Below are positions 399 to 52,968 of a stretch of 64,000 nt of DNA, in pieces. The DNA comes from Aerococcus sp. Group 1 (lineage in GTDB: Bacteria; Bacillota; Bacilli; Lactobacillales; Aerococcaceae), in the NCBI RefSeq assembly GCF_000193205.1, contig NC_015278.1, positions 1,116,001 to 1,180,000 on the forward strand, written 5' to 3'. The notes under the pieces are model-generated. The model worked only from the letters and a program-made list of their open reading frames with translations, was not told the DNA's origin and did not search any database. Both the position numbers and the translations under genes were made by a program. How positions within the stretch are numbered: the first letter of the stretch is position 1; every line of letters begins with the position of its first letter.

Positions 399-1733
399 TT
401 ACAAGTAGAAGATTTGTGCCACAATGACAGTAACGATTAAGGATAATAAGAAGCCACCGTTACTTACAATAAACGCTTCTTTAAAACCATGTTTGAAGTC
501 TAAGCCACTAATATTGTTAAAGGTTAAGACAACTCCTGATTGAGGAACAACTGTAATTACTCCACCACCAATAACAACGATACGGTGGATAATTTCAGCT
601 GGAATCCCCATTGATAAGTAAGTTGGTGCTAATTGGGTAATAACAGTCCCAATGGCACCTGAAGCAGCCATAACCCCTGAAAGAATAGCAGTTGCAACCG
701 CTAAACTAACTAATGGTGGTCCAGGAATATTAAGGATGGCTTGTTTAATTGCGTCAAAGGTTGGTGCACTGGTTAATACCGCCCCAAAGGCTACAGCACT
801 TGCTGCCCCAAAGGAAGAACCCACTGAGCCTGTAGCACCAGCATTTAAGACTTCTGTTTGTTTCGGTAAATAAGATTTAAATAAGAATGCAGATAATACA
901 ATGCTAATGGTTAAGGCAATTAAGATGATATTATCAACATTTGAAAAAATCATAATAGTCGCAATTAAAATAACCAAAGGAATAATACTGGTTACAAAGG
1001 ATGGTAAGTCATTATCAGAATGTTCAACGACATCTTCTTCGATCTGACTCGTATCCCCTTCAAGATATGAATAGAAACCTTCCCCTTTTGCTTGACTCTT
1101 GTTGAGTTCATATTTCATATACCATAGGCCAAAGCCCAGCATGACTACAGTAGAAATAATCCCAAGCACTGGAGCAGCCGTTAAGCTCGTGCCTAGTGTC
1201 GTTGTAGGGATAGCATTTTGTACGGACGGAGTCCCCGGAATCATGGACATGGTAAAGGTTCCTGCTCCTAAATATAATGGAATAGATAATAATTTCCAGT
1301 TAATGTCTAATTTCTTAAAAATCGGTCTGGCAAGAGGAATTAAAGTAAAGAAAACCACAAAAATACTAATACCACCAAAGGTTAATAAGGCCCCAATAAA
1401 AGTTAAGGCTACCAGCACTTTATAGGCACTTTCAGTTCCAACCTTGTCTAAAATAAAGTTAGCGATAGAAACAGTTGCTCCACTTTTATCCATGTATTGG
1501 CCTAAAATAGCACCCAGGATGAAAATCCCAAAGTTCTTAATTAAAAAACCAGCCAATCCTGCCATATAAGAATTTTCTGGACCAATTAATGATCCAAAGA
1601 TATCCATTTGGTTACATAAGATAATAATTAAAGCAGATAGTGGCGCTGCCACTACCATGCTTAATCCTTTAAATGAAAGATAAATGACGCTAATTATAGC
1701 TACAATTAGCCCAATGATACCAATAACTTCCAT
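399..1733 (-). CDS. GntP/CitMHS-type membrane transporter (organic acid permease)
   Basis: A 444-residue integral membrane protein made almost entirely of hydrophobic segments, with one hydrophilic acidic loop near residues 210-245. The glycine-rich stretch MSMIPGTPSVQNAIPT and the two-fold arrangement of helices fit the GntP/ion-transporter superfamily, which imports gluconate, citrate or other organic acids with protons. It starts at an ATG with an AAAGGTG binding site. The gene follows the fumarate-reductase-like flavoenzyme by 30 bp on the same strand. It probably supplies that enzyme's substrate, perhaps a dicarboxylate or unsaturated acid. The exact substrate cannot be read from the sequence. 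Confidence 0.8.
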   Translation of the reverse strand: MEVIGIIGLIVAIISVIYLSFKGLSMVVAAPLSALIIILCNQMDIFGSLIGPENSYMAGLAGFLIKNFGIFILGAILGQYMDKSGATVSIANFILDKVGTESAYKVLVALTFIGALLTFGGISIFVVFFTLIPLARPIFKKLDINWKLLSIPLYLGAGTFTMSMIPGTPSVQNAIPTTTLGTSLTAAPVLGIISTVVMLGFGLWYMKYELNKSQAKGEGFYSYLEGDTSQIEEDVVEHSDNDLPSFVTSIIPLVILIATIMIFSNVDNIILIALTISIVLSAFLFKSYLPKQTEVLNAGATGSVGSSFGAASAVAFGAVLTSAPTFDAIKQAILNIPGPPLVSLAVATAILSGVMAASGAIGTVITQLAPTYLSMGIPAEIIHRIVVIGGGVITVVPQSGVVLTFNNISGLDFKHGFKEAFIVSNGGFLLSLIVTVIVAQIFYL

Positions 1734-1763: not shown

Positions 1764-3635
1764 TTATCGATTGCTTGCAGCGTTTTCGCCAGCAATTCTT
1801 CCGTAAGTAAAGATGTCAATTAAGGCGTTTCCACCAAGACGGTTTCCTGCGTGAATCCCACCTGCAACTTCACCAGCTGCAAATAAGCCATCAATAGCTT
1901 CACCAGCTTCATTGATTACTTGGGCATTCACATTGATTTTCAAACCACCCATGGTATGATGGGTTGCAGGACTTCTTGGAGTCGCGTAGAATGGAGGGAC
2001 CTCTACCTTATAGTTGAATGAACCCTTATTAAATTCAGGATCGTGTCCATCCTCAACATATTGGTTATATTTCTCAATGGTATCAACCAGAACTTCAGGA
2101 TCAATATTAATTTGTTCAGCAAGTTCTTCCAAGGTATCTGCTCTAAAGCAAGCATCGTTTTTAATATCATTTTCGAGTTGTTCATCAGTAGAATTGAAAC
2201 GGGTTGCCGCAATATTCTTGTCAGAAATATTGTAAATCAAGCCGCCTTGGTCAAAGATTGCTTGGCAAAGTTGGTCACGAGTCCCATATTCATTAACAAA
2301 ACGTTTACCTTCTAAGTTAACAAAGACGAAATCAGAAGGTGGACAGTCAATCCCACTAAAGATATTACCTGTAATAGGGTCGGCACTAGGCATTAATTGA
2401 GCAAAGCCCATATCTACTAGAGCTGCATTAACTGATAGCCCCATTGCAATACCATCCCCGGTTAAGGCTGGTGAATTGGTTGTTGGGATCGTTTCAGGAA
2501 GATTACCCCAGTAATTATCATATTTTTTGACCATTTCAAAGTTAGCTGAGTAGCCACCAGTAGCCATAACTACCCCACTCTTAGCGTGAACGGTTAAGTC
2601 GTTGCCGTTGCTGTATTGAGCTTTCACACCAACAATTTTACCGTCTTCTACCAGTAATTCTTTAGCTTGGCAGTCAGTAATAATTTCTCCACCTTGTTGG
2701 GTAAAGTATTTTTGCAAGGGGTCAATAAAGCCGTAACCACCAGTAGGAATTGGTTCACGGGCACGACGCCAGGAAGCTCCCACAGGTTCAGTAACATGCT
2801 CTTCATCAAATTCAACACCCTTGGTTTTCATCCATTCAATGGTTTGACGACCTTTGTGGGTTAAATTAGATACTAAGTCGTAATTACCATAGGTAACATT
2901 ACCATCTAAGTCTTTCCGCGTTCCTCCTAATAAGGTTTGGATACAGAAGAGGTTTTCTGAATCAAAGAGGTAATTTTCTCCGTTTTCCATATCAGCGAAG
3001 TATTTTTCTAGCTCGCCTTTTAACTCACGGAATTGTGAGCGATAGGCTTCTGGAATGTCCGCTTCGTCCATTTGATAAATTCCCTTTAAGTTATTAACTT
3101 CCCCTGGGAAAGCATCAAAGCCTTTTTGCCATTCAGGGTCAGCAGAGTTAATTTGTCCCCCTGTCCGTGTGGTATTTCCGCCGAGTGAAGGGAATTTTTC
3201 AAGAAGAATGACCTTAGCTCCCTTATCAATGGCACCGATAGCTGCTGATAAACCAGCTCCACCTGAACCTAATACAACCACATCAGCACTTTTTTCATCA
3301 GGACTGTCAGCTTGGTCAGCTTGGTATTTAGGACGATTACGGAATTCTTCAGGGTCCCCACCGGCTGCTTCAATAGCATCGGCAACACCTGCCAAAATCC
3401 CCTTACTGGTTACTGTCGCTCCACTGACGGTATCGACATTGAGGGTTTGGCCTTCAATAATTGCTTTAGGAATTCTTTCAAAGACTGGTGAAGTGATTCC
3501 CTTACTTTCACCACTAGTATCAATCTCAATACTCTTAATGCGATCGTCAGTCAAAGTGACTTCCATAGGTAAAGACCCATTGTGTCCTGCTGCTCTAACA
3601 GAATAACTACCTGGTTCAAAAAGACCTTTTGTCAT
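1764..3635 (-). CDS. Flavocytochrome c-type fumarate/urocanate reductase-like protein (FMN-binding plus FAD domains)
   Basis: A 623-residue flavoenzyme. Residues 1-95 form an FMN_bind domain with the SGATVTS motif (71-77), where FMN is normally attached to threonine. From about 117 a FAD_binding_2 fold begins with the dinucleotide motif GSGGAGLS (123-130). The C-terminal part has the HHTMGG and GNRLGGNAL segments, which carry the catalytic His and Arg in fumarate reductases. No signal peptide or haem motif is seen, so it is probably cytoplasmic. The family reduces fumarate, urocanate or related enoates. The start at 3635 is chosen over a start 18 codons upstream because TAGGAGGT sits just before it. 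It is in a likely operon with the permease downstream and is divergent from the RpiR regulator. Confidence 0.88.
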   Translation of the reverse strand: MTKGLFEPGSYSVRAAGHNGSLPMEVTLTDDRIKSIEIDTSGESKGITSPVFERIPKAIIEGQTLNVDTVSGATVTSKGILAGVADAIEAAGGDPEEFRNRPKYQADQADSPDEKSADVVVLGSGGAGLSAAIGAIDKGAKVILLEKFPSLGGNTTRTGGQINSADPEWQKGFDAFPGEVNNLKGIYQMDEADIPEAYRSQFRELKGELEKYFADMENGENYLFDSENLFCIQTLLGGTRKDLDGNVTYGNYDLVSNLTHKGRQTIEWMKTKGVEFDEEHVTEPVGASWRRAREPIPTGGYGFIDPLQKYFTQQGGEIITDCQAKELLVEDGKIVGVKAQYSNGNDLTVHAKSGVVMATGGYSANFEMVKKYDNYWGNLPETIPTTNSPALTGDGIAMGLSVNAALVDMGFAQLMPSADPITGNIFSGIDCPPSDFVFVNLEGKRFVNEYGTRDQLCQAIFDQGGLIYNISDKNIAATRFNSTDEQLENDIKNDACFRADTLEELAEQINIDPEVLVDTIEKYNQYVEDGHDPEFNKGSFNYKVEVPPFYATPRSPATHHTMGGLKINVNAQVINEAGEAIDGLFAAGEVAGGIHAGNRLGGNALIDIFTYGRIAGENAASNR

Positions 3636-3814
3636 CTTTATACCTCCTAAAAATAAATAGATAACCTGTTTTCGTGATAAGGATAACATATTAAGAATAG
3701 TTGTTACTATACTTTAGGAGTTAATATAAACATGTTCAATTTCAAACTAAACAAAATAGAAAATAACCCATTAGTGATTAAAGTAATCGCTATCAAGGAT
3801 TCTTGTAAAAATGT

Positions 3815-3853: not shown

Positions 3854-4543
3854 ATGAAATTAGAACGTATTATCAGTAAATATCATTTAACTGACACTGA
3901 AGTTGATATTTTAAAGCATTTAATCCAATCTGATGCTAAGCTAACGATCCGCGAGCTAGCAGAAAAAGCCTATGTTTCCCCGGCAACCATTATCCATTTA
4001 GCCAAAAAAATGAACTTCTCTGGTTATAGTGAATTATTATTTCAATTTAACCAAGAACGTGAAAAAGAAATGCACGTCAGCCAACAATCAATCATCGATT
4101 GCTATGGGGAAGCTTTTTATCAAATGATGGAAAAATACCAAGATAAGCTATTTATTTTTATGGGTCTAGGCTTTTCCTTACACTTAGCTAATTATATGTC
4201 TGACCTCTTAAATACTTTTGGCTTTCGCTCCATCAGTAATACTTATGAAGAATTCATCAATAAAACCTTTGCTGGTGAAGCGGTTATTATTTTCATTAGT
4301 CATTCAGGAGAAACGGAATATCTTCTGCGTTTAGCTCAACTTGCTCATAAAAATGGTGTTGAATATATTGTTTTTACCGGAAATGCCAGTGGCCAGCTCA
4401 AAAATCATGCCGCATTGGCTATAGATACCAAATCATATTCCATTTTCCGTTATAAGGAATACAAGGCCCAAGTCTTTTTTGGTCTAAGTCTCATTTATTT
4501 TGAAGAATTAATCGCCTATTCCCTAAAAAGATTAGATAAATAA
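3854..4543 (+). CDS. MurR/RpiR-family transcriptional regulator
   Basis: A 229-residue regulator. An N-terminal HTH_6 domain (about 1-75, with RELAEKAYVSPATIIHLAKK as the recognition region) is followed by a SIS sugar-phosphate-binding domain (about 100-215, with the ISHSGETEYLL loop). RpiR proteins sense phosphosugars and control nearby metabolic genes. The gene is divergent from the flavoenzyme-permease pair and shares a 218-bp intergenic region with it. That suggests it controls that pair, although the pair does not look like a sugar pathway. It is one of only two convincing plus-strand genes in the window. Confidence 0.9.
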   Translation: MKLERIISKYHLTDTEVDILKHLIQSDAKLTIRELAEKAYVSPATIIHLAKKMNFSGYSELLFQFNQEREKEMHVSQQSIIDCYGEAFYQMMEKYQDKLFIFMGLGFSLHLANYMSDLLNTFGFRSISNTYEEFINKTFAGEAVIIFISHSGETEYLLRLAQLAHKNGVEYIVFTGNASGQLKNHAALAIDTKSYSIFRYKEYKAQVFFGLSLIYFEELIAYSLKRLDK

Positions 4544-4612: not shown

Positions 4613-5419
4613 CTAAGTTTGCAATAATAGTTCATCACTCACTAATTGACTGCCTACACTTTGCTTAAAGAGTTCCATCAAGTCCTCGACATTTAATTTT
4701 CTCTTGTCCTCCCCACTCACATCAACCACAATTCGACCTGCATGCAGCATGATTAAACGGTTTCCATAGCTTAAGGCATCGTTCATATCATGGGTTATCA
4801 TCAAACTGGTTAATGAATTTTCTGTGATGAGTTGATCGGTCAGCTCCATAACCATGGCACTAGTCCGGGGATCAAGAGCTGCAATATGTTCATCAAGGAG
4901 TAGAAGTTCTGGCTTCTCGAGTATAGCCATCAAGAGCGTTAGAACTTGCCGTTGTCCTCCTGAAAGATTGCTGGCAGGAGTAGTTAAACGCTGGTCTAAT
5001 CCTAAATTTAACCTTCCCAACTTCTTATGAAAAATTTTCCGCATATCATCTGTAACAGCTCGATTAAAGCTGCGTCTGTTTCCTCTCTTATAGGCAATAG
5101 CCAGATTTTCTTCAATGGTTAAGTTACGAGCAGTTCCCATTTGAGGATCTTGAAATACACGACTTATGTGTTTAGCGCGCTCAGGTGCTGGTTTTTGAGT
5201 AATATTTTTCCCTTTTAGATAAATCTTCCCAGAAGTTACTGGAATGGTTCCTGCAATTAAATTTAACAGTGTAGACTTTCCTGCGCCATTGGAACCAATA
5301 ACACAAATAAAGTCTCCTTCATGAATCCTTAAATTAAAATTCTTGAGCACATGATTTTCATTAGCACTATTCATATTAAAAACTTTGTTTACCTGCTTTA
5401 ATTTCAATAATTCTGACAT
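4613..5419 (-). CDS. ABC transporter ATPase, TrpXYZ-type importer 1
   Basis: A 268-residue ATPase. Walker A GSNGAGKST is at 42-50, the signature is LSGGQRQVL, and Walker B ends LLLLDEHIAALDP, with DEH in place of the more usual DEP. The start at 5419 is used because AAAGGTGG precedes it; an in-frame extension of 22 codons upstream lacks this and overlaps the permease gene. It is the last gene of a three-gene operon (substrate-binding lipoprotein, permease, ATPase), an arrangement found in tryptophan/tyrosine-type importers. It has the same length as its paralogue at 49578-50384 and is highly similar to it. Confidence 0.9.
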   Translation of the reverse strand: MSELLKLKQVNKVFNMNSANENHVLKNFNLRIHEGDFICVIGSNGAGKSTLLNLIAGTIPVTSGKIYLKGKNITQKPAPERAKHISRVFQDPQMGTARNLTIEENLAIAYKRGNRRSFNRAVTDDMRKIFHKKLGRLNLGLDQRLTTPASNLSGGQRQVLTLLMAILEKPELLLLDEHIAALDPRTSAMVMELTDQLITENSLTSLMITHDMNDALSYGNRLIMLHAGRIVVDVSGEDKRKLNVEDLMELFKQSVGSQLVSDELLLQT

Positions 5420-5435
5420 AGTAACCACCTTTCTA

Positions 5436-6323
5436 CTATTTTTGCTTTCTCTTGTGGTCGATTTGACTCTTGGCATAAGGAGCAAAGAGGATAATAGCTA
5501 GGGCTAACGATGATAAGATTTTTATATCACTTGGTAAGACAGGAATGACTTGCTGTTGCATGATAAAGTCAATAATTAGGCGATAAATCACTGCCCCAAT
5601 AGCAATCGTTACTAGGCGTTTACCGAAGCTAGTATTCTTGTAAATGACTTCCCCAATAATAACAGCGGCTAAACCAATAACAATTGTCCCTGTACCCATA
5701 GCAATATCCGCATAACCGTTATTTTGACAGATAATCGCACCAGATAAAGCGATCAAACCGTTTGAAATCATCAAGCCAACTAATTTCATTTGTTCAGTTC
5801 GAATACCATTGGCTTCCGCCATGAGGGGGTTATCCCCGGTCGTTCTCAAACTCAAACCATACTCCGTATTCATAAATAGGACCAAAACAAAGATCACTAA
5901 AATGACGAAAATCAAGCTGATAGTCAAGGAAGCCACTGTTGAATTGAAACCCAGATTATAGAGGCTATCCATTAGGTTGGCTTCACCTAATAAGGGAGTA
6001 TTGGCTTGACCCATGATGCGGATATTTACTGAGTAAAGTCCGGTCATAGTTAGAATCCCTGATAATAAGGCTGGAATATGCATCTTATTAATCATAAAAC
6101 CGTTAACTGCTCCTGCCAGCATACCGGCAAGAAAAGCGATCAATGTAGCTAATAAAGGATGCCAACCTAAAACAATCAGCTTGGCACATACAGCTGCACC
6201 GAGAGGAAAGCTTCCTTCGGCAGACATATCAGCGATATCTAAAATGCGAAAGCTTAAATAAACCCCAAAGGCTAGGATAGCCCACATTAAACCTTGTGAA
6301 ATACTAGAAATAATGATGGCCAT
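5436..6323 (-). CDS. ABC transporter permease, TrpXYZ-type importer 1
   Basis: A 295-residue membrane protein with about eight to nine hydrophobic helices, matching the BPD_transp_2 permease type. The segment ADMSAEGSFPLGAAVCAKL near the N-terminus is typical of this family. It forms the membrane channel for the substrate delivered by the lipoprotein encoded just upstream (4-bp gap). The binding site is GGGAGAA. It is paralogous to the permease at 50401-51285 over its whole length. Confidence 0.9.
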   Translation of the reverse strand: MAIIISSISQGLMWAILAFGVYLSFRILDIADMSAEGSFPLGAAVCAKLIVLGWHPLLATLIAFLAGMLAGAVNGFMINKMHIPALLSGILTMTGLYSVNIRIMGQANTPLLGEANLMDSLYNLGFNSTVASLTISLIFVILVIFVLVLFMNTEYGLSLRTTGDNPLMAEANGIRTEQMKLVGLMISNGLIALSGAIICQNNGYADIAMGTGTIVIGLAAVIIGEVIYKNTSFGKRLVTIAIGAVIYRLIIDFIMQQQVIPVLPSDIKILSSLALAIILFAPYAKSQIDHKRKQK

Positions 6324-6327
6324 TGCT

Positions 6328-7281
6328 CTATTCTCCCTTCTTCAACTGATCGGTATCAATTCCAAGTGCGCTTGCCATTTCTTCATTCACTTGTAATTCA
6401 TACTCATTTGATTTTTCAACTGGCATTTTACTGATGTCAGCATCCTCTTCTAAGATTTTTACTGCCATTTCAGCGGTTTGACGGCCTAAGTGCTTAAAAT
6501 TGACCCCGTAAGTTGCCAAGCAACCTTCTATATGAGCGCTTTCCGCACCAATGGTAGGAATTTTTGCTTCTTTTATCACTTTTCCAATGGTAGGAATTGT
6601 TTGAGCGATGGTATTATCAGTGGGTAAGCAAATACCGTCTACTTTTTTTGCTAATGTAGTTATCGCAGATTGAACTTCATTAGTGCTGGTTACAGTTTGA
6701 GCTTCAACTCTTAATCCCTTACTTTCAGCGTATGCTTTAAAGGCAGCAAATTGAACTTCAGAATTGACTTCACTAGAATTGTAAGGCATTCCTACCGCCT
6801 TTATTTCAGGATTAATCTTTAAGAGCAAGTCGACAGCCTTTTCAACAGGCGTCATATCTGTCGTTCCACTAGCATTAGTTCCAGGCTGATCATTTGATTT
6901 CACTAAATTAGCTGATTCTGGATCAGTGACTGCAGTAAATAAAGTAGGAGTCTCCTTATCAGCGTTGAGTGCTGCTTGGGTAGCTGGGGTAGCGATAGTA
7001 AAGACGAGGTCTTTTCGTCCTTTCATCCCTTGAGCAATACTATTAAGATTGGATTGGTCTGCTTGGGCATTTTGGTAGTCGACTTTGATCTTTTCACCAT
7101 CTTTTAAGCCCGCTTCAGCTAATCCTTCTAGGAAACCTTCACAAGAATCATTCAGTGCTTGGTGTTCTGCGTATTGAATGATACCAATCTCTTTTTGATC
7201 GTTTTCTTTTACTTGGCCACATCCCATTAGTCCAAGGGCTAAGGCTCCTAAGCTCATTATTTTAATAACTTGTTTTTTCAT
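6328..7281 (-). CDS. ABC transporter substrate-binding lipoprotein, TrpX-like, importer 1
   Basis: A 317-residue lipoprotein with a lysine-rich start, a hydrophobic core and a lipobox ending LMGC, so it is anchored outside the membrane. The mature part fits the PF04392 binding-protein family (GIIQYAEHQALND near the N-terminus; TPTLFTAVTDPESANLV mid-way), known for tryptophan and related amino-acid uptake; the real ligand is unproven. The start at 7281 is preferred over the adjacent ATG at 7284 because it is better spaced from GAGGAG. This is the first gene of the operon and lies 73 bp downstream of a terminator-bearing leader. Confidence 0.88.
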   Translation of the reverse strand: MKKQVIKIMSLGALALGLMGCGQVKENDQKEIGIIQYAEHQALNDSCEGFLEGLAEAGLKDGEKIKVDYQNAQADQSNLNSIAQGMKGRKDLVFTIATPATQAALNADKETPTLFTAVTDPESANLVKSNDQPGTNASGTTDMTPVEKAVDLLLKINPEIKAVGMPYNSSEVNSEVQFAAFKAYAESKGLRVEAQTVTSTNEVQSAITTLAKKVDGICLPTDNTIAQTIPTIGKVIKEAKIPTIGAESAHIEGCLATYGVNFKHLGRQTAEMAVKILEEDADISKMPVEKSNEYELQVNEEMASALGIDTDQLKKGE

Positions 7282-7339
7282 CATAATCTCCTCTTTCTCA
7301 GTTTTAAAGACAGTGTTTCCCATATTTATAACAACAAAC

Positions 7340-7556
7340 TCTTAATAAAAAATAAAAAGGTTCAATTAGTTTCGATAAAAACTAATTGAACCTTTTACGA
7401 GTGTATTCCAAAAGAATTCGCCTCAAGCCATTAGAATTTATCATTCTAGATGGCCTGAACACATAAATACTGTAGCCATCATAGATACAAAAACTTGCGT
7501 TTGTTTGTACCTATGATAGTGTCACAGCTACAAACATTATCTAAAATAGCTATAGT
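7340..7556 (-). ncRNA. Structured cis-regulatory leader RNA of ABC operon 1 (riboswitch or attenuator candidate)
   Basis: On the minus strand, an outer helix (7549-7556 with 7469-7476, one mismatch) encloses three complementary segments. The middle segment can pair with either its upstream or its downstream neighbour (14-bp helices). A second hairpin (7427-7454) and then the terminator follow. The same order and sequence motifs occur in front of the paralogous operon at 52424-52624, with changes that keep the pairing. No T-box consensus (TGGNACCGCG) is present. The ligand is unknown; an amino acid imported by the transporter is a reasonable guess. Confidence 0.7.
7355..7396 (-). terminator. 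Leader terminator of ABC operon 1
   Basis: An 18-bp perfect stem (7355-7372 with 7379-7396) and a 6-nt loop. On the minus strand it is followed by TTTTTATTTTTTATT. It lies between the operon's promoter side and its first gene, which is the position of an attenuator, not an end-of-operon terminator. Confidence 0.85.
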
Positions 7557-7856
7557 AATATGTATTAGTGGTGATATCTAAAGATAAAACCATTAGCGAA
7601 TCGAATTGGATTTTTAACATTTTTCTTACGCCCTTTTTATTAAGATATATCCATCATAATCAGGAAGTTTATAAATGTCAACGCTTTTCTTGTTTTAATA
7701 TTCAAACAATTTGTGATTTATTGGAACAAAGACTGCTTCAAATTAGAAAAAATATTCTCATGACTAAGTCAAGAATGCACTAAAACATAGGCTTAAAGGC
7801 CATTGATTGTTTGGCCTTGTTAATAGAATAAATCCTGGGTGAAACCCCTTATTAAA

Positions 7857-8693: not shown

Positions 8694-11477
8694 CTAGTCC
8701 TCCAATAATTTTAAAATATCCTCATCCGTGATTTGGTTGATATCCGCTTCAAGGTCATTAGCAACTCGACTGGATAGATTCTTAATCAAACGTTCATTAA
8801 TATTTCTAATCCAGCGACCATTACTATGGTCATTCGATTTTGCATAAGCTTTTTTAATGACCTCTTCATACAAGGATTCATTGAAATTATAACTTTGCTT
8901 ACTTAGTCCTAAACGACCAATTTTTACAATTTCATCTTCAAAATAATCTTCAAAATCAAAAATATTTGGAATACGACTGGTTAATCCAGAATTAGTCCTT
9001 AAGAACTCATTCATTTCTTTGGTATAACCAGCTAAAACAATAATGATATCTTGGCGGTGATCTTCCATAAATTTAAGAATCTCATTGATTGCTTCTTGAC
9101 CAAAGTTATCATTAGTAGTGGCCAGTGAATAAGCTTCATCAATAAAGAGAACCCCGCCTAAAGCGGACTCCAATACTTCTCTTGTTTTTAATGCAGTTTG
9201 CCCCACATAGCCAGCAACAAGATCACTTCTAGATACCTCAATAAATTTCTTTTGAGCAATTATTCCTTTTTGATAGAAAATTTCTCCTAAAATACGAGCA
9301 ACGGTAGTCTTCCCAGTTCCTGGATTTCCTAAGAAAAGTGAATGCAGAGTAAATTTAGCTTCACCACCGTTCTCTTCTTCACGTCGCCGATTTAATTCAG
9401 CTAAATGTACAAATTCAGAAATTTGCTTTTTAACTTTTGCAAGACCGATCAATTCATTTAATGCATCAAAGGCATCTTTTCCTTCTTTTACTTCATAACC
9501 GGCGTGTTTACCGAGGACCTCATCAATATCTTGATTAGTGATGGTATTAAGGTCTTCAAATTGTTCATTTTTATAGCAACGATCAGCCAAGGCCTTATAG
9601 AGTTTTTCATTAAAATTACGGATCCAACGGCCATTACTTCTATCCAAAGAAGCATTGTATACCCTAGAAACATTACGCTTATAATAATCGCTATCTTCTA
9701 ATCGATAATCATTTTCTTTTAACTGTCTCTCGCCCATGGCAACAATTTCGTCAGCCGTATAATCTTCGAAAAGAAAGGTGTTAGGGACTCTTGATTTAAG
9801 CCCCGGATTGGTCTTTAAAAATTGCTCCATCTCCTTAGTATAACCTGCAAAAATAATCATAGTATCCTCACGATTATCTTCCATAAAGGTTAAAAGCGTG
9901 TTAATCGCTTCTTGGCCAAAATTGACACTAGCGTCTTTTTTATTCAAAGTATAAGCTTCATCAATAAAAAGAATCCCGCCTCTAGCTTGCTCTAGAAGGT
10001 TTTGTGTTTGAATAGCAGTTTGCCCCACATAGCCAGAAATAAGGTCTGCCTCTTTTACTTCGATAAATTTCAATTTATCGCCCTTAAAAATGCCATAGTC
10101 AAATAAGACTTCACCTAAAATTCGAGCCAATGTTGTTTTCCCAGTTCCTGGATTTCCCATAAAAACAGAATGAAGGACGACCTTTTGCGGTTTGAGTCCC
10201 TGAGCTATACGGTGCTTGTTAAACTCCACCATTCGAATCATCTTATGAATTTCTTCTTTGACCTTAGTGAGCCCAACTAAATTATTTAATTTTTCCATCG
10301 AAACTTGGGGGGTTCTCTCTGCTTCATCTTGATTTTGAGAAACTTGCTTATTTTCACGGATCTCTTGCTTTTCAGCTAAAAGATTGAAATAGCTCGTTTC
10401 ATCCGTGTCAAAAATTAGATCTGACACTGATCCTTGATCATACTTTAACTGATTAATATATAGGTGCGAACCTTGTTTAACTCGGATATTAGGATTAAAT
10501 AGTCGATTGACCTTTATTTCATCGGCAATCAAAGCTGAATTGTTTCTAACTAATAAGTCAATTTTTTCATCATTATTGCCTTGAAAATTAACAGATTTCT
10601 GAATCCTTGCTAGTGTTGAGTCTTCAAGCGATAAAAGATAAGCAATTTCCGACGAACTTAAAAATAATTTAGAATTTAGTGCACGTATGGAACTCACAAA
10701 GCTATCAGTAAATTTTAGATTGGATCCATCATCCGAACCAACTGACTCACAATATTTTTTATCGCTTTTAACTTCCTGAATAATTGAAGAACTAGCTACA
10801 GTTACAGAGGAGTTTATCAAAAGCAAAGCAGGGTAATTATTTTCATTATTCCCCCCTTCAATATGCGTCTGTTCAATCTTCAAGTTCGAGGAATTAGAAT
10901 TAATCACATTCCTTTCATAGTTTATCATTGTACAATTTGATATTTGTACTTTACATTTATTAATATTCATCTTTGAATAAAAAGTTGAATTTTGAAAAGT
11001 ACCTTGAGAGCCATCTAGCATTATCGTTTTACTCAATTCCGAATCTTGTGGATAAGTAAAGCAACTTGACATAGTTAGGCTAGCTTCTCCATAAGTGTAT
11101 ATTAAAACTCTTGTTTTAACTTTATCAATGTCATTAACTAAACAATTGTTAAATACTGCTTTGGACTTATTCTTGACGATGATTGCAACCTTATCATCAT
11201 AAGCACGTTCAATCCAAAAATCTTCAAATGTCACATCAGCTCCATCTGTAACAACGATTGGTACTCTAATGGAATTAGTGAATAATTGCCCTCCATCACT
11301 TTTGGGTTCAACATTTCCTACAAAATTAAGCGATTTATCTATATTTAAGCTTGTTATATACGATTGATCTATAGTGTAATTAGGTTCAAATTCGATTGTA
11401 TCGCCATTGCTTGCTGCTTGATAGGCATCTATTAAATCCCACGCATTATCGCTTATTCCTACTTTATAAAATGCCAT
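8694..11477 (-). CDS. Beta-helix/tandem AAA+ ATPase of the CbxX/SpoVK type
   Basis: A 927-residue protein. Residues 1 to about 350 form a Ser/Asn-rich series of short strands with recurring NSS, SNLKI and SxVTV units, which fits a right-handed parallel beta-helix. Two CbxX/CfqX-type AAA+ domains follow. The first has Walker A GNPGTGKTT (about 441-449), Walker B ILFIDEAYTL and an arginine-finger segment GLKSRVP. The second repeats these as GNPGTGKTT, VLFIDEAYSL and GLTSRIP. Related ATPases include SpoVK and the EccA protein of type VII secretion. The start at 11477 is supported by GGAG seven bases upstream. It is in an operon with the YVQPP-repeat membrane protein. The substrate and role are unknown. 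Confidence 0.85.
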   Translation of the reverse strand: MAFYKVGISDNAWDLIDAYQAASNGDTIEFEPNYTIDQSYITSLNIDKSLNFVGNVEPKSDGGQLFTNSIRVPIVVTDGADVTFEDFWIERAYDDKVAIIVKNKSKAVFNNCLVNDIDKVKTRVLIYTYGEASLTMSSCFTYPQDSELSKTIMLDGSQGTFQNSTFYSKMNINKCKVQISNCTMINYERNVINSNSSNLKIEQTHIEGGNNENNYPALLLINSSVTVASSSIIQEVKSDKKYCESVGSDDGSNLKFTDSFVSSIRALNSKLFLSSSEIAYLLSLEDSTLARIQKSVNFQGNNDEKIDLLVRNNSALIADEIKVNRLFNPNIRVKQGSHLYINQLKYDQGSVSDLIFDTDETSYFNLLAEKQEIRENKQVSQNQDEAERTPQVSMEKLNNLVGLTKVKEEIHKMIRMVEFNKHRIAQGLKPQKVVLHSVFMGNPGTGKTTLARILGEVLFDYGIFKGDKLKFIEVKEADLISGYVGQTAIQTQNLLEQARGGILFIDEAYTLNKKDASVNFGQEAINTLLTFMEDNREDTMIIFAGYTKEMEQFLKTNPGLKSRVPNTFLFEDYTADEIVAMGERQLKENDYRLEDSDYYKRNVSRVYNASLDRSNGRWIRNFNEKLYKALADRCYKNEQFEDLNTITNQDIDEVLGKHAGYEVKEGKDAFDALNELIGLAKVKKQISEFVHLAELNRRREEENGGEAKFTLHSLFLGNPGTGKTTVARILGEIFYQKGIIAQKKFIEVSRSDLVAGYVGQTALKTREVLESALGGVLFIDEAYSLATTNDNFGQEAINEILKFMEDHRQDIIIVLAGYTKEMNEFLRTNSGLTSRIPNIFDFEDYFEDEIVKIGRLGLSKQSYNFNESLYEEVIKKAYAKSNDHSNGRWIRNINERLIKNLSSRVANDLEADINQITDEDILKLLED

Positions 11478-11769
11478 ACTTTCACTCCATAACATATTAT
11501 CTATGCTTGAATTTTAAGATTTTTTATTCTGCATTAAATTTTTTGCCGTCAGGTAATAAAAGCGTATTAAGCTATTCCTCATAATTAATAAGTAATTTAA
11601 CACGAGAATATAGATAATATTATACCTTAATTTTATAAAGCAGTTTAAATTTTATTAATTTTTTATATACTTTGTTTATATTTAGTAAAGGTAATGTTTA
11701 GACTTACAAATTAAGCCTAAAACATAGACTTATCTTGTACACAATTATTCATTCAACTTAGCCAGTCAC
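11478..11769. other. AT-rich intergenic region upstream of the AAA gene
   Basis: This is very AT-rich. A TATAAT at 11619-11624 (minus strand) could be the -10 of the AAA-gene promoter, giving a leader of about 140 nt; its -35 is poor. I see no gene here. The sequence at 11717-11732 resembles 7780-7795 (16 bases, one mismatch) in the same orientation, which may extend the duplicated block around ppaC. Confidence 0.4.
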
Positions 11770-49577: not shown

Positions 49578-50384
49578 TTAGTTAGCTAGTAATAACTCAT
49601 CATTATTAAGACTTTCACCTACATTATGATGGAAAAGTTGTAGTAAGTCGTCAATGCTACAATTTTCTTTCTCTTCTCCAGAGATATCAACCACTACTTG
49701 ACCGTCATGAAGCATGATTAAACGATTGCCATAAGCTAGCGCATCATTCATATCATGGGTGATCATTAAGGTAGTCAATTGATACTCGCTGACCAAGTCT
49801 TGGGTTAAAGACATTACCATTGCACTTGTGCGCGGATCTAAGGCAGCCGTATGCTCGTCAAGAAGTAATAGTTTTGGCGTTTGTAAGACAGCCATCAGTA
49901 AGGTTAACACTTGGCGCTGTCCCCCCGATAAGTAGCTTACCCGTTCTTGCATGCGGTTTTCTAAGCCCATAGCTAAGGTGCTTAGACGAGCACGGAATTC
50001 TTCACGCATATCTTTTGTAATAGATATTTGAAAGCTGCGCTTGTGTCCTCGCTTATAAGCAATGGCTAAGTTTTCTTCCACGCTTAAGGATTTGGCTGTA
50101 CCCATTTGTGGGTCTTGGAAGACCCGACTAATCATTTTTGCACGTTTATAAGCTGGTAAAGCAGAAATTTCACGGTCTTCTAAATAAATCTGCCCCGAGC
50201 TTAAGGGAATCGTTCCGGCAATAAGATTCATCATGGTTGATTTTCCGGCGCCGTTACTGCCAATGACACTGATAAAATCGTTATCCTTAATGGAGAGATT
50301 TAAATTTTTAATGACTTGATGGGGTTTACTCGATTGCGTTTGAAATACCTTATTTAAATTCTTTAATTGAACTAATTCATTCAT
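49578..50384 (-). CDS. ABC transporter ATPase, TrpXYZ-type importer 2
   Basis: A 268-residue ATPase, the paralogue of the protein encoded at 4613-5419 with the same length and motifs: Walker A GSNGAGKST, signature YLSGGQRQVL and Walker B LLLLDEHTAALDP. The start at 50384 has AAGGAAGG nine bases upstream. It is the last gene of the second importer operon. Confidence 0.9.
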   Translation of the reverse strand: MNELVQLKNLNKVFQTQSSKPHQVIKNLNLSIKDNDFISVIGSNGAGKSTMMNLIAGTIPLSSGQIYLEDREISALPAYKRAKMISRVFQDPQMGTAKSLSVEENLAIAYKRGHKRSFQISITKDMREEFRARLSTLAMGLENRMQERVSYLSGGQRQVLTLLMAVLQTPKLLLLDEHTAALDPRTSAMVMSLTQDLVSEYQLTTLMITHDMNDALAYGNRLIMLHDGQVVVDISGEEKENCSIDDLLQLFHHNVGESLNNDELLLAN

Positions 50385-50400
50385 GATTATTTTCCTTCCT

Positions 50401-51285
50401 TTAATCATTTAAGCGAGCGCTTTTCTTAGTCTTCCATTCTACTTGTGGGCCCCATAGGATAATTGCCAATACTATGGCGGATAGTATCTTGATATCACTT
50501 GGTAAAATCGGAATATATTTCATGATTAAGTCGATAATTACTCGATAGATAATCGCACCCAAAATTATTGAAAATAAACGACTTGGTAATTTTACTTGGC
50601 TTAATAAAACTTCGCCAATCACAATGGCAGCTAGACCAATGACGATGGTTCCGGTTCCCATTGATAAGTCAGCATAGCCGTTATACTGAGCGATTAAAGC
50701 CCCTGATAGAGCAATCAAGGCATTAGAAATCATGTAACCCACTAATTGCACGTGGTCCGTCCGAATCCCGTTAGCTTCTGCCATTAAAGCATTATCACCA
50801 GTTGCAATTAAAGCTAATCCGTACTCAGTTCCCATAAAAATCACAAGTCCTAAAATGATAACCATGACGGTTAATAAGCCTAGTAAAAATGGTGACCATG
50901 TTGTCGATATACCTAAGTTCTCTATTGAAGTTAACAAGGTTTTTTCTCCTAGTAAGGGAGTATTGGCTTGCCCCATGACTCTTAAGTTAATGGAGTAAAG
51001 TCCGGTCATAGTTAAGATCCCTGCCAAGAGGGCCGGTATTTTCATCTTAGTGGTCATGAAACCGGTTAGAAAGCCAGCCAAAGCGCCTGCTAGAAGTGCT
51101 GCTAGAAACGCTAATAAAGGGGATACCTGATTGACTAATAATTTAGCACAGACAGCCGCGCCTAAGGGGAAACTCCCCTCAGCTGATAAGTCGGCTAAGC
51201 CTAAGATTCTAAAAGTAATATATACCCCTATGGCCAGGATAGACCACATCATTCCTTGCGAAACACTAGATATCAATAAATCCAT
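50401..51285 (-). CDS. ABC transporter permease, TrpXYZ-type importer 2
   Basis: A 294-residue membrane protein with about eight to nine helices, paralogous to the permease at 5436-6323 from end to end (for example LADLSAEGSFPLGAAVCAKL and MGTGTIVIGLAA). It forms the channel of the second importer. The gene starts about 80 bp after the reconstructed stop of the substrate-binding gene and 16 bp separate it from the ATPase gene. Confidence 0.9.
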   Translation of the reverse strand: MDLLISSVSQGMMWSILAIGVYITFRILGLADLSAEGSFPLGAAVCAKLLVNQVSPLLAFLAALLAGALAGFLTGFMTTKMKIPALLAGILTMTGLYSINLRVMGQANTPLLGEKTLLTSIENLGISTTWSPFLLGLLTVMVIILGLVIFMGTEYGLALIATGDNALMAEANGIRTDHVQLVGYMISNALIALSGALIAQYNGYADLSMGTGTIVIGLAAIVIGEVLLSQVKLPSRLFSIILGAIIYRVIIDLIMKYIPILPSDIKILSAIVLAIILWGPQVEWKTKKSARLND

Positions 51286-51364
51286 TCTTCTTGCACCTCT
51301 TCTAATATGCCTGGTCTGGCTATTTATCTTTCATTTTTATTTAACTTAATGAATAACATTTAAA

Positions 51365-52329
51365 TTATTCTTTTAAACGCGCCTTTAATTCTTCACTATC
51401 CATTCCCAAAGCAGCAGCCATTTCATCATTCACCTTAACAACTAGGTCCTTAGAACTTTCTACTGGAATGTCTTTAGGTTTTTATTTTCCTTCAGAATAT
51501 CTACTGCCATTTTCCCAGTTTGTTGTCCTAATTTGTAGAAGTCCACCCCATAGGCACATAAGGAACCCTCGATAGCAGCATCGAAAGCGGCTACGGATGG
51601 TGTCTTAGTTTCCATTAAAACTTTGCCAATTGTTTGAATGGTGTTAGCAATGGTATTATCGGTTGGGAGGTAGATACCATCTACTTTTTCTGCTAAGATT
51701 TTTGTCGCTTGTTGGACTTCATTAGTTGAGGTCACTGTCATACTTTCGACCTTTAAGCCCTTGGATTCGATATATTCCTTGGCTTGTTCATATTGCACTT
51801 CTGAATTTACTTCACTTGAGTTATATAAGATCCCAATTGTTTTAATACTTGGATCAGCCTTTAATAATAAGTCGACGACATCACCAACTGGAGCCATATC
51901 ACTGGTACCGGTCATATTTTTACCGGGTTTTTCCATACTCTCAACTAATTTAGCACTGACCGGATCAGTTACTGCTGTAAATAATTGTGGGGTCTCCTTA
52001 TCAGTATTGAGCATAGCTTGTGCAGCTGGTGTAGCAATACTTAAAATCAAGTCCTTTTTCCCTTTTAATTGTTGGGTAATACTTTGCAAGTTTGACTGGT
52101 CCCCTTGGGAGTTATGGAATTCAATCGCTAAATTCTTTCCTTCTTCATAACCAGCCTCTTTCAGGCTATCTTGGAAACCTTCTTTAGCTCTTTGTAGGGA
52201 ATCGTGTTCCATATATTGGATAATACCCACATCGACCTTTTCAGTACTGCTTTCATTACCTTGATTGGAACAAGCTGCTAATGTACATGTTAATAAACCT
52301 GCTGTGAGATAACGTAAATATTTTTTCAT
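51365..52329 (-). CDS. ABC transporter substrate-binding lipoprotein, TrpX-like, importer 2, apparent frameshift near the C-terminus
   Basis: A paralogue of the lipoprotein encoded at 6328-7281, with a lipobox ending LAAC and the TPQLFTAVTDPVSAKLV segment. As written the frame ends at 51460 after ENKNLKTFQ, about 30 residues short of its paralogue. The missing tail is present in another frame (DIPVESSKDLVVKVNDEM and onward, stop at 51365-51367). One extra A in the A5 run at 51479-51483 restores it as ENKKPKDIPVE. The start at 52329 rather than 52332 fits the GGAGG spacing. It follows a structured leader RNA. Confidence 0.88.
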
Positions 52330-52423
52330 CATTTTTCCTCCATCATTCTATATATAAGGGTTAACTTTCTATTTTTCTGACTGTTAAACGGACCTTCCAT
52401 ACTATCACTCCCCTAAAAGGTAT

Positions 52424-52624
52424 AAAAAAAGCCCACCTAGTTTGGAAAAAACTAAATGGGCTGAATAATAGCATATATTAATAGTGGTATAGCCCATTTA
52501 GAATTTATCCATTCTATGAGGGCTAGACACGCTTAAGATCCTTAGCCATCATAGATACAAACTTGAGTTTGACGTTTGTATCTATGATGTTTCATAGTAC
52601 AAACGCTATCTAAAATAGCTAAAG
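52424..52624 (-). ncRNA. Structured cis-regulatory leader RNA of ABC operon 2 (riboswitch or attenuator candidate)
   Basis: This is the paralogue of the leader at 7340-7556. The outer helix pairs 52618-52624 with 52540-52546. Three complementary segments lie inside it, with the middle one able to pair either way. A second hairpin (52491-52524) and the terminator follow. Here an antiterminator is plain: 52491-52500 pairs perfectly with 52453-52462, an arm of the terminator. The outer-helix sequence differs from that in operon 1 while pairing is kept. The ligand or factor is unknown. Confidence 0.72.
52430..52462 (-). terminator. Leader terminator of ABC operon 2
   Basis: A 14-bp stem with GU/mismatch interior (52430-52444 with 52449-52462) followed by TTTTTTT on the minus strand, about 95 bp before the first gene. 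Confidence 0.85.
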
Positions 52625-52647
52625 TAAAATCGTACATTTTGATAAGT

Positions 52648-52661
52648 AGAGCATGCGCTCT
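52648..52661. promoter_or_regulatory. Palindrome just upstream of the operon 2 leader (possible operator)
   Basis: AGAGC and GCTCT arms separated by four bases, flanked by two TTGATAAG copies about 26 bp apart. It lies where the promoter should be. Operon 1 has no equivalent, so a repressor site specific to operon 2 is possible. Confidence 0.35.
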
Positions 52662-52968
52662 GGTTGATAAGATATTTAACTGACATGATCACATGCTCCT
52701 TTCTTAAGCTGTTGAAGTAATATTAAACAATTTTTAAGGTAAAGTCAACTCTTAATTTAAAACATAAGTTTATATTTCTAAATTTAAAATTTTATTTTAT
52801 AAATAATAGAACGAAAAGACTTATATAAGGGTAATCTTAGAGATTATTTTTTTAATCGATCTATTATTTTGATCGATCTTGATCATTATTTCAAAATAAG
52901 CTCTGATTTCTTAATCCACTCGGCTAGTCTTTTATTAAAATTTCATTTCTAAGTTTCAGTTTAAAAGA

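Follow-up and report, generated by a model that had tools for sequence, protein, structure and literature searches.

Two leader RNAs in the window (the whole 64,000-nucleotide stretch of a Lactobacillales genome that was analyzed), each in front of an operon for a TrpX-type ABC importer, very probably function as ribosome-mediated transcription attenuators of the trpL/pheL kind, as judged from their sequences and from folding models. Attenuation is the best reading for the RNA family and for leader 2 and the likely one for leader 1, and amino acid supply is most probably sensed by a ribosome at work on a leader peptide rich in Tyr and Phe, and not by an aptamer or a T-box. An initial annotation of leader 1 had proposed a riboswitch or an attenuator; the second is supported and the first most likely does not apply. 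Taken jointly, our results suggest that two Rfam families, sRNA_2410 (RF02863) and the trpB motif (RF04312), are probably branches of a single codon-swappable Lactobacillales attenuator family for aromatic and branched-chain amino acids, with a three-state OFF/OFF/ON logic and with codons that label the substrates of the importers, perhaps distinguishing Tyr from Phe.

Leader 1 lies on the minus strand. A promoter-like TTGACA-17-TATGAT (7653..7681, a consensus match only) precedes a leader ORF of 27 codons (7537..7620), MLKIQFDSLMVLSLDITTNTYYYSYFR-stop, which has an SD-like AAGGGCG upstream and whose frame is conserved in 100 leaders. The initial annotation lacked this 5' part, since both the promoter-like sequence (7681-7653) and the ORF (7620-7537) lie upstream of what it described. 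The ORF ends in the control codons Tyr Tyr Tyr Ser Tyr Phe, then Arg and the stop codon (YYYSYFR-stop). This end of the ORF is also the C element (7538..7554), the 5' arm of an outer helix in which 7554-7538 pairs with the 3' part of segment 3 (7493-7473). Segment 1 (7522..7536) follows the leader stop codon immediately and is followed by segment 2 (7502..7518), which can pair with either neighbor, segment 1 or segment 3, with duplex energies of -18.4 and -20.7 kcal/mol. Segment 3 (7473..7493) can pair with C, with segment 2 or with P3a, one of the two arms (P3a and P3b) of the P3 hairpin (7424..7457). The stem of an intrinsic terminator (7355..7396), followed by a U run, lies 70-73 nt upstream of the first gene, which begins with a double ATG (7284/7281). 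The outer helix, the three mutually complementary segments, the second hairpin and the terminator had all been recognized in the initial annotation and are present on the minus strand where it placed them.

Operon 1, on the same strand, encodes a PF04392 binding protein (6328..7284), predicted to bind tyrosine on the basis of its Pfam and PDB matches (6hni, 3lft, 3lkv) and a Glu/Phe pocket, together with a PF02653 permease (5436..6323) and a PF00005 ATPase (4613..5485), both assigned by Pfam. Next to the operon lie genes for a flavoprotein with FMN_bind and FAD_binding_2 domains (1764-3689, minus strand), a GntP-family permease (399-1733, minus strand) and a divergent RpiR-family regulator (3854-4543, plus strand). 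Elsewhere in the window, 8694-11495 on the minus strand encodes a protein of 933 aa in which two AAA ATPase domains and an AAA lid follow a long N-terminal part that has no Pfam match.

Leader 2 (52430..52622, minus strand; RF02863 match 52443-52622) has the same layout as leader 1. A promoter-like TTGACT-17-TAATAT (52720..52748, a consensus match only) is followed by a leader ORF (52606..52686), MSVKYLINQSACSTYQNVRFYFSYFR-stop, with mixed Phe/Tyr codons, and by C (52622-52607), segments 1 (52604-52591), 2 (52588-52574) and 3 (52562-52542), P3 (52525-52490) and the terminator stem (52462-52430), all on the minus strand. Operon 2 (49578..52332, minus strand) was recognized by the Pfam domains of its three genes, which encode a binding protein (PF04392, 51460..52332), a permease (PF02653, 50401..51285) and an ATPase (PF00005, 49578..50408). 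The nearest genome (G001) carries two operon starts of the leader-2 type (L024 and L064) and one of the leader-1 type. The binding proteins at L024 and L064 are 92% and 96% identical to that of operon 2, and the near-identical relative at L064 is 322 aa long, compared with 290 aa for the operon 2 protein.

The description of leader 1 as an undescribed RNA proved wrong. RF02863 covers both leaders, with leader 2 scoring 61.6 bits, above the gathering cut-off of 61, and leader 1 scoring 46.8 bits (E 1.4e-6), below it. RF04312 matched leader 2 at 36.2 bits, below its cut-off of 59, and no match to leader 1 was listed up to E 10. As the initial annotation had stated, there is no T-box: T-box families in Rfam gave no match to either leader up to E 10. 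We rejected T-boxes and other Rfam riboswitches as identities for the leaders, there being no Rfam match to them. The Rfam scan that the initial annotation had called for did match a known family, but one labelled an sRNA and not a known riboswitch or T-box. Further matches of leader 1 to plant and animal miRNA families and to a plastid 3' UTR were taken as chance resemblances to the terminator hairpin.

Similar elements had also been published as riboswitch candidates in 2015 and 2024. The 2015 study (PMC4448216) described two Streptococcus agalactiae elements, gbs2033 and gbs1262, as conserved in Lactobacillales; elements of this type precede paralogous ABC operons, aroFBC-tyrA of Enterococcus faecium and trpB of Fusobacterium nucleatum, gave short and long transcripts from one start in S. 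agalactiae, and were proposed to be aromatic amino acid riboswitches. A word search of the text of that paper found no mention of a leader peptide. The 2024 study (PMC11109978) presented the trpB motif, with over 900 members mostly upstream of an uncharacterized ABC transporter, as a strong riboswitch candidate, and did not rule out a classic attenuator. For sRNA_2410 of E. faecium, Northern blots were reported to show two transcripts, along with a 2.3-fold change under daptomycin (PMC5593968). We equate sRNA_2410 and the trpB motif with the elements studied here because of the Rfam matches, and gbs2033/gbs1262 because of gene context only. In the open-licence literature surveyed, we found neither a leader peptide assigned to sRNA_2410 or the trpB motif nor a further report on gbs2033/gbs1262. 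A Leu/Phe leader of Lactococcus bears the name llnc147, for which no paper was found in the same literature.

Results from homology searches showed that the structure recognized in leader 1 is not a chance one, as RF02863 matched 98 places in 57 of 100 related genomes and none of 14 control genomes (E <= 0.001); matches above the family cut-off occurred in 25 of the related genomes. These 98 places and the two leaders of the window make up the set of 100 leaders used below. A core model (R1) searched over the class matched 27 of 299 genomes, five of them outside the order, and the leader ORF is present in four of these five; the remaining match (L151 in genome G220) was rejected, as it lies inside a coding stretch and has no leader. 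In three of the four out-of-order leaders, the peptide ends in RFYFSYF, the pairing of C with segment 3 is rewritten as TTGATAC with GTATCAA, and the next gene is DAHP synthase-like by eye. RF04312 searched over the wider phylum matched 5 of 398 genomes. Among these matches, L162 has a Trp leader, and L160 and L161, which have no convincing leader and look like chance, were set aside. A trpB-motif match in another class (L159, ~1500) has a Phe-type leader, IFFNNHFR-stop, followed by a gene that by eye is NSS-family symporter-like.

To define the reading frame without choosing an ORF, we anchored the test on a conserved TAGAT. The predicted frame ran without a stop over 12 or more codons in 98 of the 100 leaders, compared with 53 and 0 for the other two frames, and it contained a start codon with an SD sequence in 89 leaders, compared with 0 and 0. 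For shuffled upstream DNA, the count was 68 of 2000. Leader ORFs were chosen by SD strength, with three (L077, L114 and L124) set by hand. In eight of the 100 leaders, the stop lies three codons further on (SCL, NCL, CCL or VCL after Arg or LR), and their last three residues were omitted when the leaders were classed; a few leaders have no terminal Arg. An intrinsic terminator was found in 98 of the 100.

The codons of the leader ORF follow the genes downstream. Phe/Tyr codons characterize 88 of the 100 RF02863-type leaders, which precede 65 TrpX-type ABC importers, 22 aromatic-pathway operons and one SBP_bac_3 protein. The pathway genes are aroE, DAHP synthase, aroB, aroC, aroA and prephenate dehydratase or dehydrogenase, and the count of 22 includes three operons in which a DASS transporter comes first and chorismate mutase follows. 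In the other 12 leaders, the codons are for Ile/Leu/Val (IISIIR, LLISVIR, LLLLSLIIR and similar), and the genes downstream are without exception ilvA, ilvBNC, ilvE or liv transport genes. For the biosynthetic loci (22/0/0/12), Fisher's test gave 1.8e-9, which is no true probability, because the loci are related and their counts are therefore not independent. The suggestion that an amino acid or its charged tRNA is the signal is supported. Among Aerococcaceae, a Phe/Asn variant of the leader occurs (FFSNFR, FFNNYFR and FFNSNFR; L102, L103, L110, L117 and L118), and a leader of Fundicoccus ignavus (L174, ~1179) ends in IINRIYIR-stop, has segments as in RF02863-type leaders and is followed by a gene that by eye is OppA-type peptide-binding protein-like, perhaps a further class of target.

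Furthermore, 59 of 65 places matched by RF04312 have a Trp-codon leader (WQNWRR, WQSWHR, RWQSH and similar). Five more coincide with RF02863-type Phe/Tyr leaders, and the last (L219, 37.8 bits) is without a leader and may be a chance match. For the best 30 of the 65 places, the next genes were a TrpX-type operon in 24 and trpB in 4, with none in the fetched stretch in 2. At L031 and L040, a Trp leader occurs with the trpB motif and the fetched downstream stretch (from 1613) contains no ORF of at least 70 codons.

Covariation in a wide alignment, which the initial annotation had set beforehand as a check on its proposal, was found. The alignment (A1) comprised 98 of the 100 leaders, two identical copies being omitted, and 93 distinct rows. 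The proposed design of two exclusive pairings and a terminator is supported. Segments 1 and 2 were paired in 98.6% of cells, with 6 of 7 pairs changed on both sides, and the P3 hairpin was paired in 84.1%, with 9 of 11 pairs so changed. For segments 2 and 3, the values were 92.6% and 5 of 13 pairs, and two of five measures were not clearly above shuffles (further pair types as high in 466 of 500 shuffles, double-sided changes in 35 of 500). RNAalifold applied to the core recovered the pairing of segments 2 and 3 alone, with 2 of 9 pairs changed on both sides, as is expected if the alternatives exclude each other. The pairing of C with segment 3 occurs in compensating sets (TTAGCTA:TGGCTAA, ACAGCTA:GAGCTGT, TTAGCAT:GTGCTAA, ACGGTTA:GAGCCGT and ACAACTA:GAGTTGT), and its mean was 90% in a fixed register, with poor pairing there at a few loci whose spacing differs.

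Pairing within and between loci was compared for 96 leaders, two more having been omitted since the script found no terminator in them. Averaged over the leaders, each of the seven proposed pairings was stronger between segments of one locus than between segments of different loci. A segment's own partner beat at least 80% of the foreign ones in 71 of the 96 leaders for C with segment 3, 78 for segments 1 and 2, 46 for segments 2 and 3, 38 for segment 3 with P3a, 67 for P3a with P3b, 70 for P3b with the terminator's 5' arm (P3b:T1) and 95 for the terminator stem (T1:T2). Four control pairings gave 19 to 32 of 96, so that the pairing of segment 3 with P3a, at 38, is the least supported.

In the proposed mechanism, with no ribosome on the leader, C would hold segment 3, and P3 and the terminator would form (OFF). 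When Tyr and Phe are ample, a ribosome at the stop codon would cover segment 1, so that segment 2 would take segment 3, and the outcome would again be OFF. A shortage of charged tRNA-Tyr or tRNA-Phe would stall the ribosome on the control codons, where it would mask C and leave segment 1 free; segment 1 would then take segment 2, segment 3 would open P3, and P3b, which in the family is able to take the terminator's 5' arm, would block the terminator (ON), allowing transcription of the importer genes. Specificity would be set by the control codons: those of leader 1 are rich in Tyr, leader 2 has a Phe/Tyr mixture, and relatives have codons for Trp or Ile/Leu/Val. The trpB-motif branch lacks P3, and there segment 3 would pair directly with the terminator arm.

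We modeled these states in 96 leaders by folding nascent transcripts that extend to the terminator's 5' arm, with a ribosome footprint that was moved codon by codon, its edge lying 12 nt past the start of the A-site codon. The antiterminator probability was low without a ribosome (median 0.006, mean 0.10) and with a ribosome at the stop (median 0.08, mean 0.21), and it rose at the control codons, 4-6 codons before the stop (medians 0.48-0.53, means 0.40-0.46). Further upstream, the median was 0.07-0.14, and with the footprint four codons beyond the stop it was back up to 0.53. A change of at least 0.3 with ribosome position was seen in only 41 of the 96 leaders. Among trpB-type leaders (30 of the 65 places), the medians were 0.13 without a ribosome, 0.34 at the stop and 0.48-0.55 at codons 4-7. 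Leader 2 reached 0.79 and 0.72 at codons 4 and 3 and fell to 0.05 at the stop, in an uneven profile with 0.27-0.32 at codons 5-7 and 0.58 at codon 8. Leader 1 did not respond: its value was 0.23-0.25 wherever the ribosome was placed and 0.00 in its absence, owing to a strong P3 and a weak P3b:T1 pairing (-4.4 kcal/mol); equilibrium folding showed no switching of leader 1 even when segment 3 was left free. Leader 1 may instead work through folding kinetics or another antiterminator, or may have decayed.

The binding proteins provide a comparison of leader codons with substrates. Both binding proteins of the window match the PDB entries 6hni, 3lft and 3lkv. Published work (PMC6816091) reports for the proteins of these entries that CD0873 binds tyrosine, SP1069 tryptophan and VC_1101 phenylalanine, and names two selectivity residues. 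Our tree and pocket counts cover importer loci whose first ORF is a binding protein of usable length, namely 63 of the 65 with Phe/Tyr leaders and 23 of the 24 with Trp leaders. The second selectivity position is Gln in all 23 Trp-leader proteins, as in the Trp-bound structure (PMC6816091), and Tyr (58) or Phe (5) in all 63 Phe/Tyr-leader proteins, and the two groups lie on opposite sides of one branch of the tree with a support of 100/100. The first position is Glu, the residue that contacts the tyrosine OH in CD0873 (PMC6816091), in four proteins including that of operon 1; all four have Tyr-rich leaders (Mann-Whitney p 0.006 compared with the other 59) and belong to one clade only. Phe occupies the first position in eight proteins, including that of operon 2, with leaders that are Phe-richer on average, that of operon 2 being mixed; Ser is commonest (47 proteins) and has mixed leaders. 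The predicted ligands of the window's two binding proteins are Tyr for operon 1 and Phe for operon 2. Leader class, tree and pocket residue were concordant in all 86 importers compared, and the leaders can therefore predict importer substrates.

Three other explanations were weighed against attenuation. The riboswitch proposed for gbs2033/gbs1262 and the trpB motif (PMC4448216, PMC11109978), with an aromatic amino acid or a precursor as its ligand, would account for a conserved leader with a terminator and alternative pairings, but not for an ORF conserved in one frame or for codons that vary with the regulated pathway inside one RNA frame. By eye, conservation in A1 lies in the coding end and the paired segments, the loops vary in length and sequence, and no conserved unpaired loop core was seen; we regard a riboswitch as improbable. 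Arrest of the nascent peptide at the leader stop, with the free amino acid as cofactor as in TnaC, is marginally less probable again. The strong conservation of the peptide end, (Y/F)SYFR-stop, would favor such arrest, but an RNA pairing, UAGAUA:UAUCUA, accounts for the terminal Arg and stop. The peptide ends also vary by class (YFSYFR, IISIIR, WQNWRR and others), the eight late-stop leaders and the few that lack Arg depart from them, and a ribosome at the stop corresponds to OFF in the footprint model.

The least probable alternative is that the terminated leader acts in trans as a small RNA, in line with the name sRNA_2410, and that its location before genes is incidental. The two Northern transcripts of E. 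faecium sRNA_2410 and their 2.3-fold change under daptomycin (PMC5593968) are compatible with this, yet short terminated products are also what an attenuator puts out, and short and long forms with one start were seen in S. agalactiae (PMC4448216). Moreover, 99 of the 100 RF02863-type leaders precede TrpX-type importers or codon-matching pathway genes, and the remaining one precedes another binding protein. The terminated leader may have an additional role in trans. Altogether, attenuation by a translating ribosome is the reading we prefer.

Ribosome-mediated attenuation is itself known, including in Firmicutes (PMC2965389) and Acholeplasma (PMC8632094). What seems new, with respect to the open-licence literature surveyed, is the reading of sRNA_2410 and the trpB motif as attenuators, a single RNA frame with swapped codons, and the inclusion of the ORF end in the switch. 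T-boxes are known for related genes in Lactobacillales (PMC9382623), and our reading, if true, would extend ribosome-mediated attenuation in this order to aromatic and branched-chain amino acids. It would also account for an RNA family now catalogued as an sRNA and for a strong riboswitch candidate, sparing the search for a ligand that possibly does not exist, and would provide predictors for importer substrates that are otherwise unassigned.

Among published systems, gbs2033/gbs1262 are alike in having a paralogous ABC operon context and both terminated and read-through RNAs, the likeness being one of gene context only, and differ in having been read as aromatic amino acid riboswitches (PMC4448216). 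Leader-ORF codon control likewise operates in Gram-positives or their kin in the His leaders of hisS/hisZ in bacilli, which are leader-peptide attenuators (PMC2965389), in the aroF uORF of Acholeplasma (PMC8632094) and in the ilv leader-peptide attenuator of Staphylococcus aureus (PMC5794164); these are reported as separate cases, and no link to RF02863 or RF04312 was seen in the material consulted. The Trp T-box of Streptococcus suis trpXYZ also controls a TrpX-type importer by termination in response to amino acid supply, but senses uncharged tRNA directly (PMC9382623), in contrast to the leaders described here, which have no T-box match. RF02863 (E. faecium) represents a homologous RNA but is filed as an sRNA gene, and its model begins within the end of the leader ORF, leaving the ORF start and most codons outside. 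The trpB motif, often found before TrpX-type importers, shares the plan of leader ORF, C, segments 1-3 and terminator, and differs in its Trp codons, in the absence of P3 and in the direct pairing of segment 3 with the terminator arm. The trpL, pheL and ilv attenuators of E. coli combine a short ORF containing control codons with alternative pairings, a terminator and matching genes; compared with these, the ORF end here doubles as a pairing arm, and two links, P3a and P3b, are added in the RF02863 branch.
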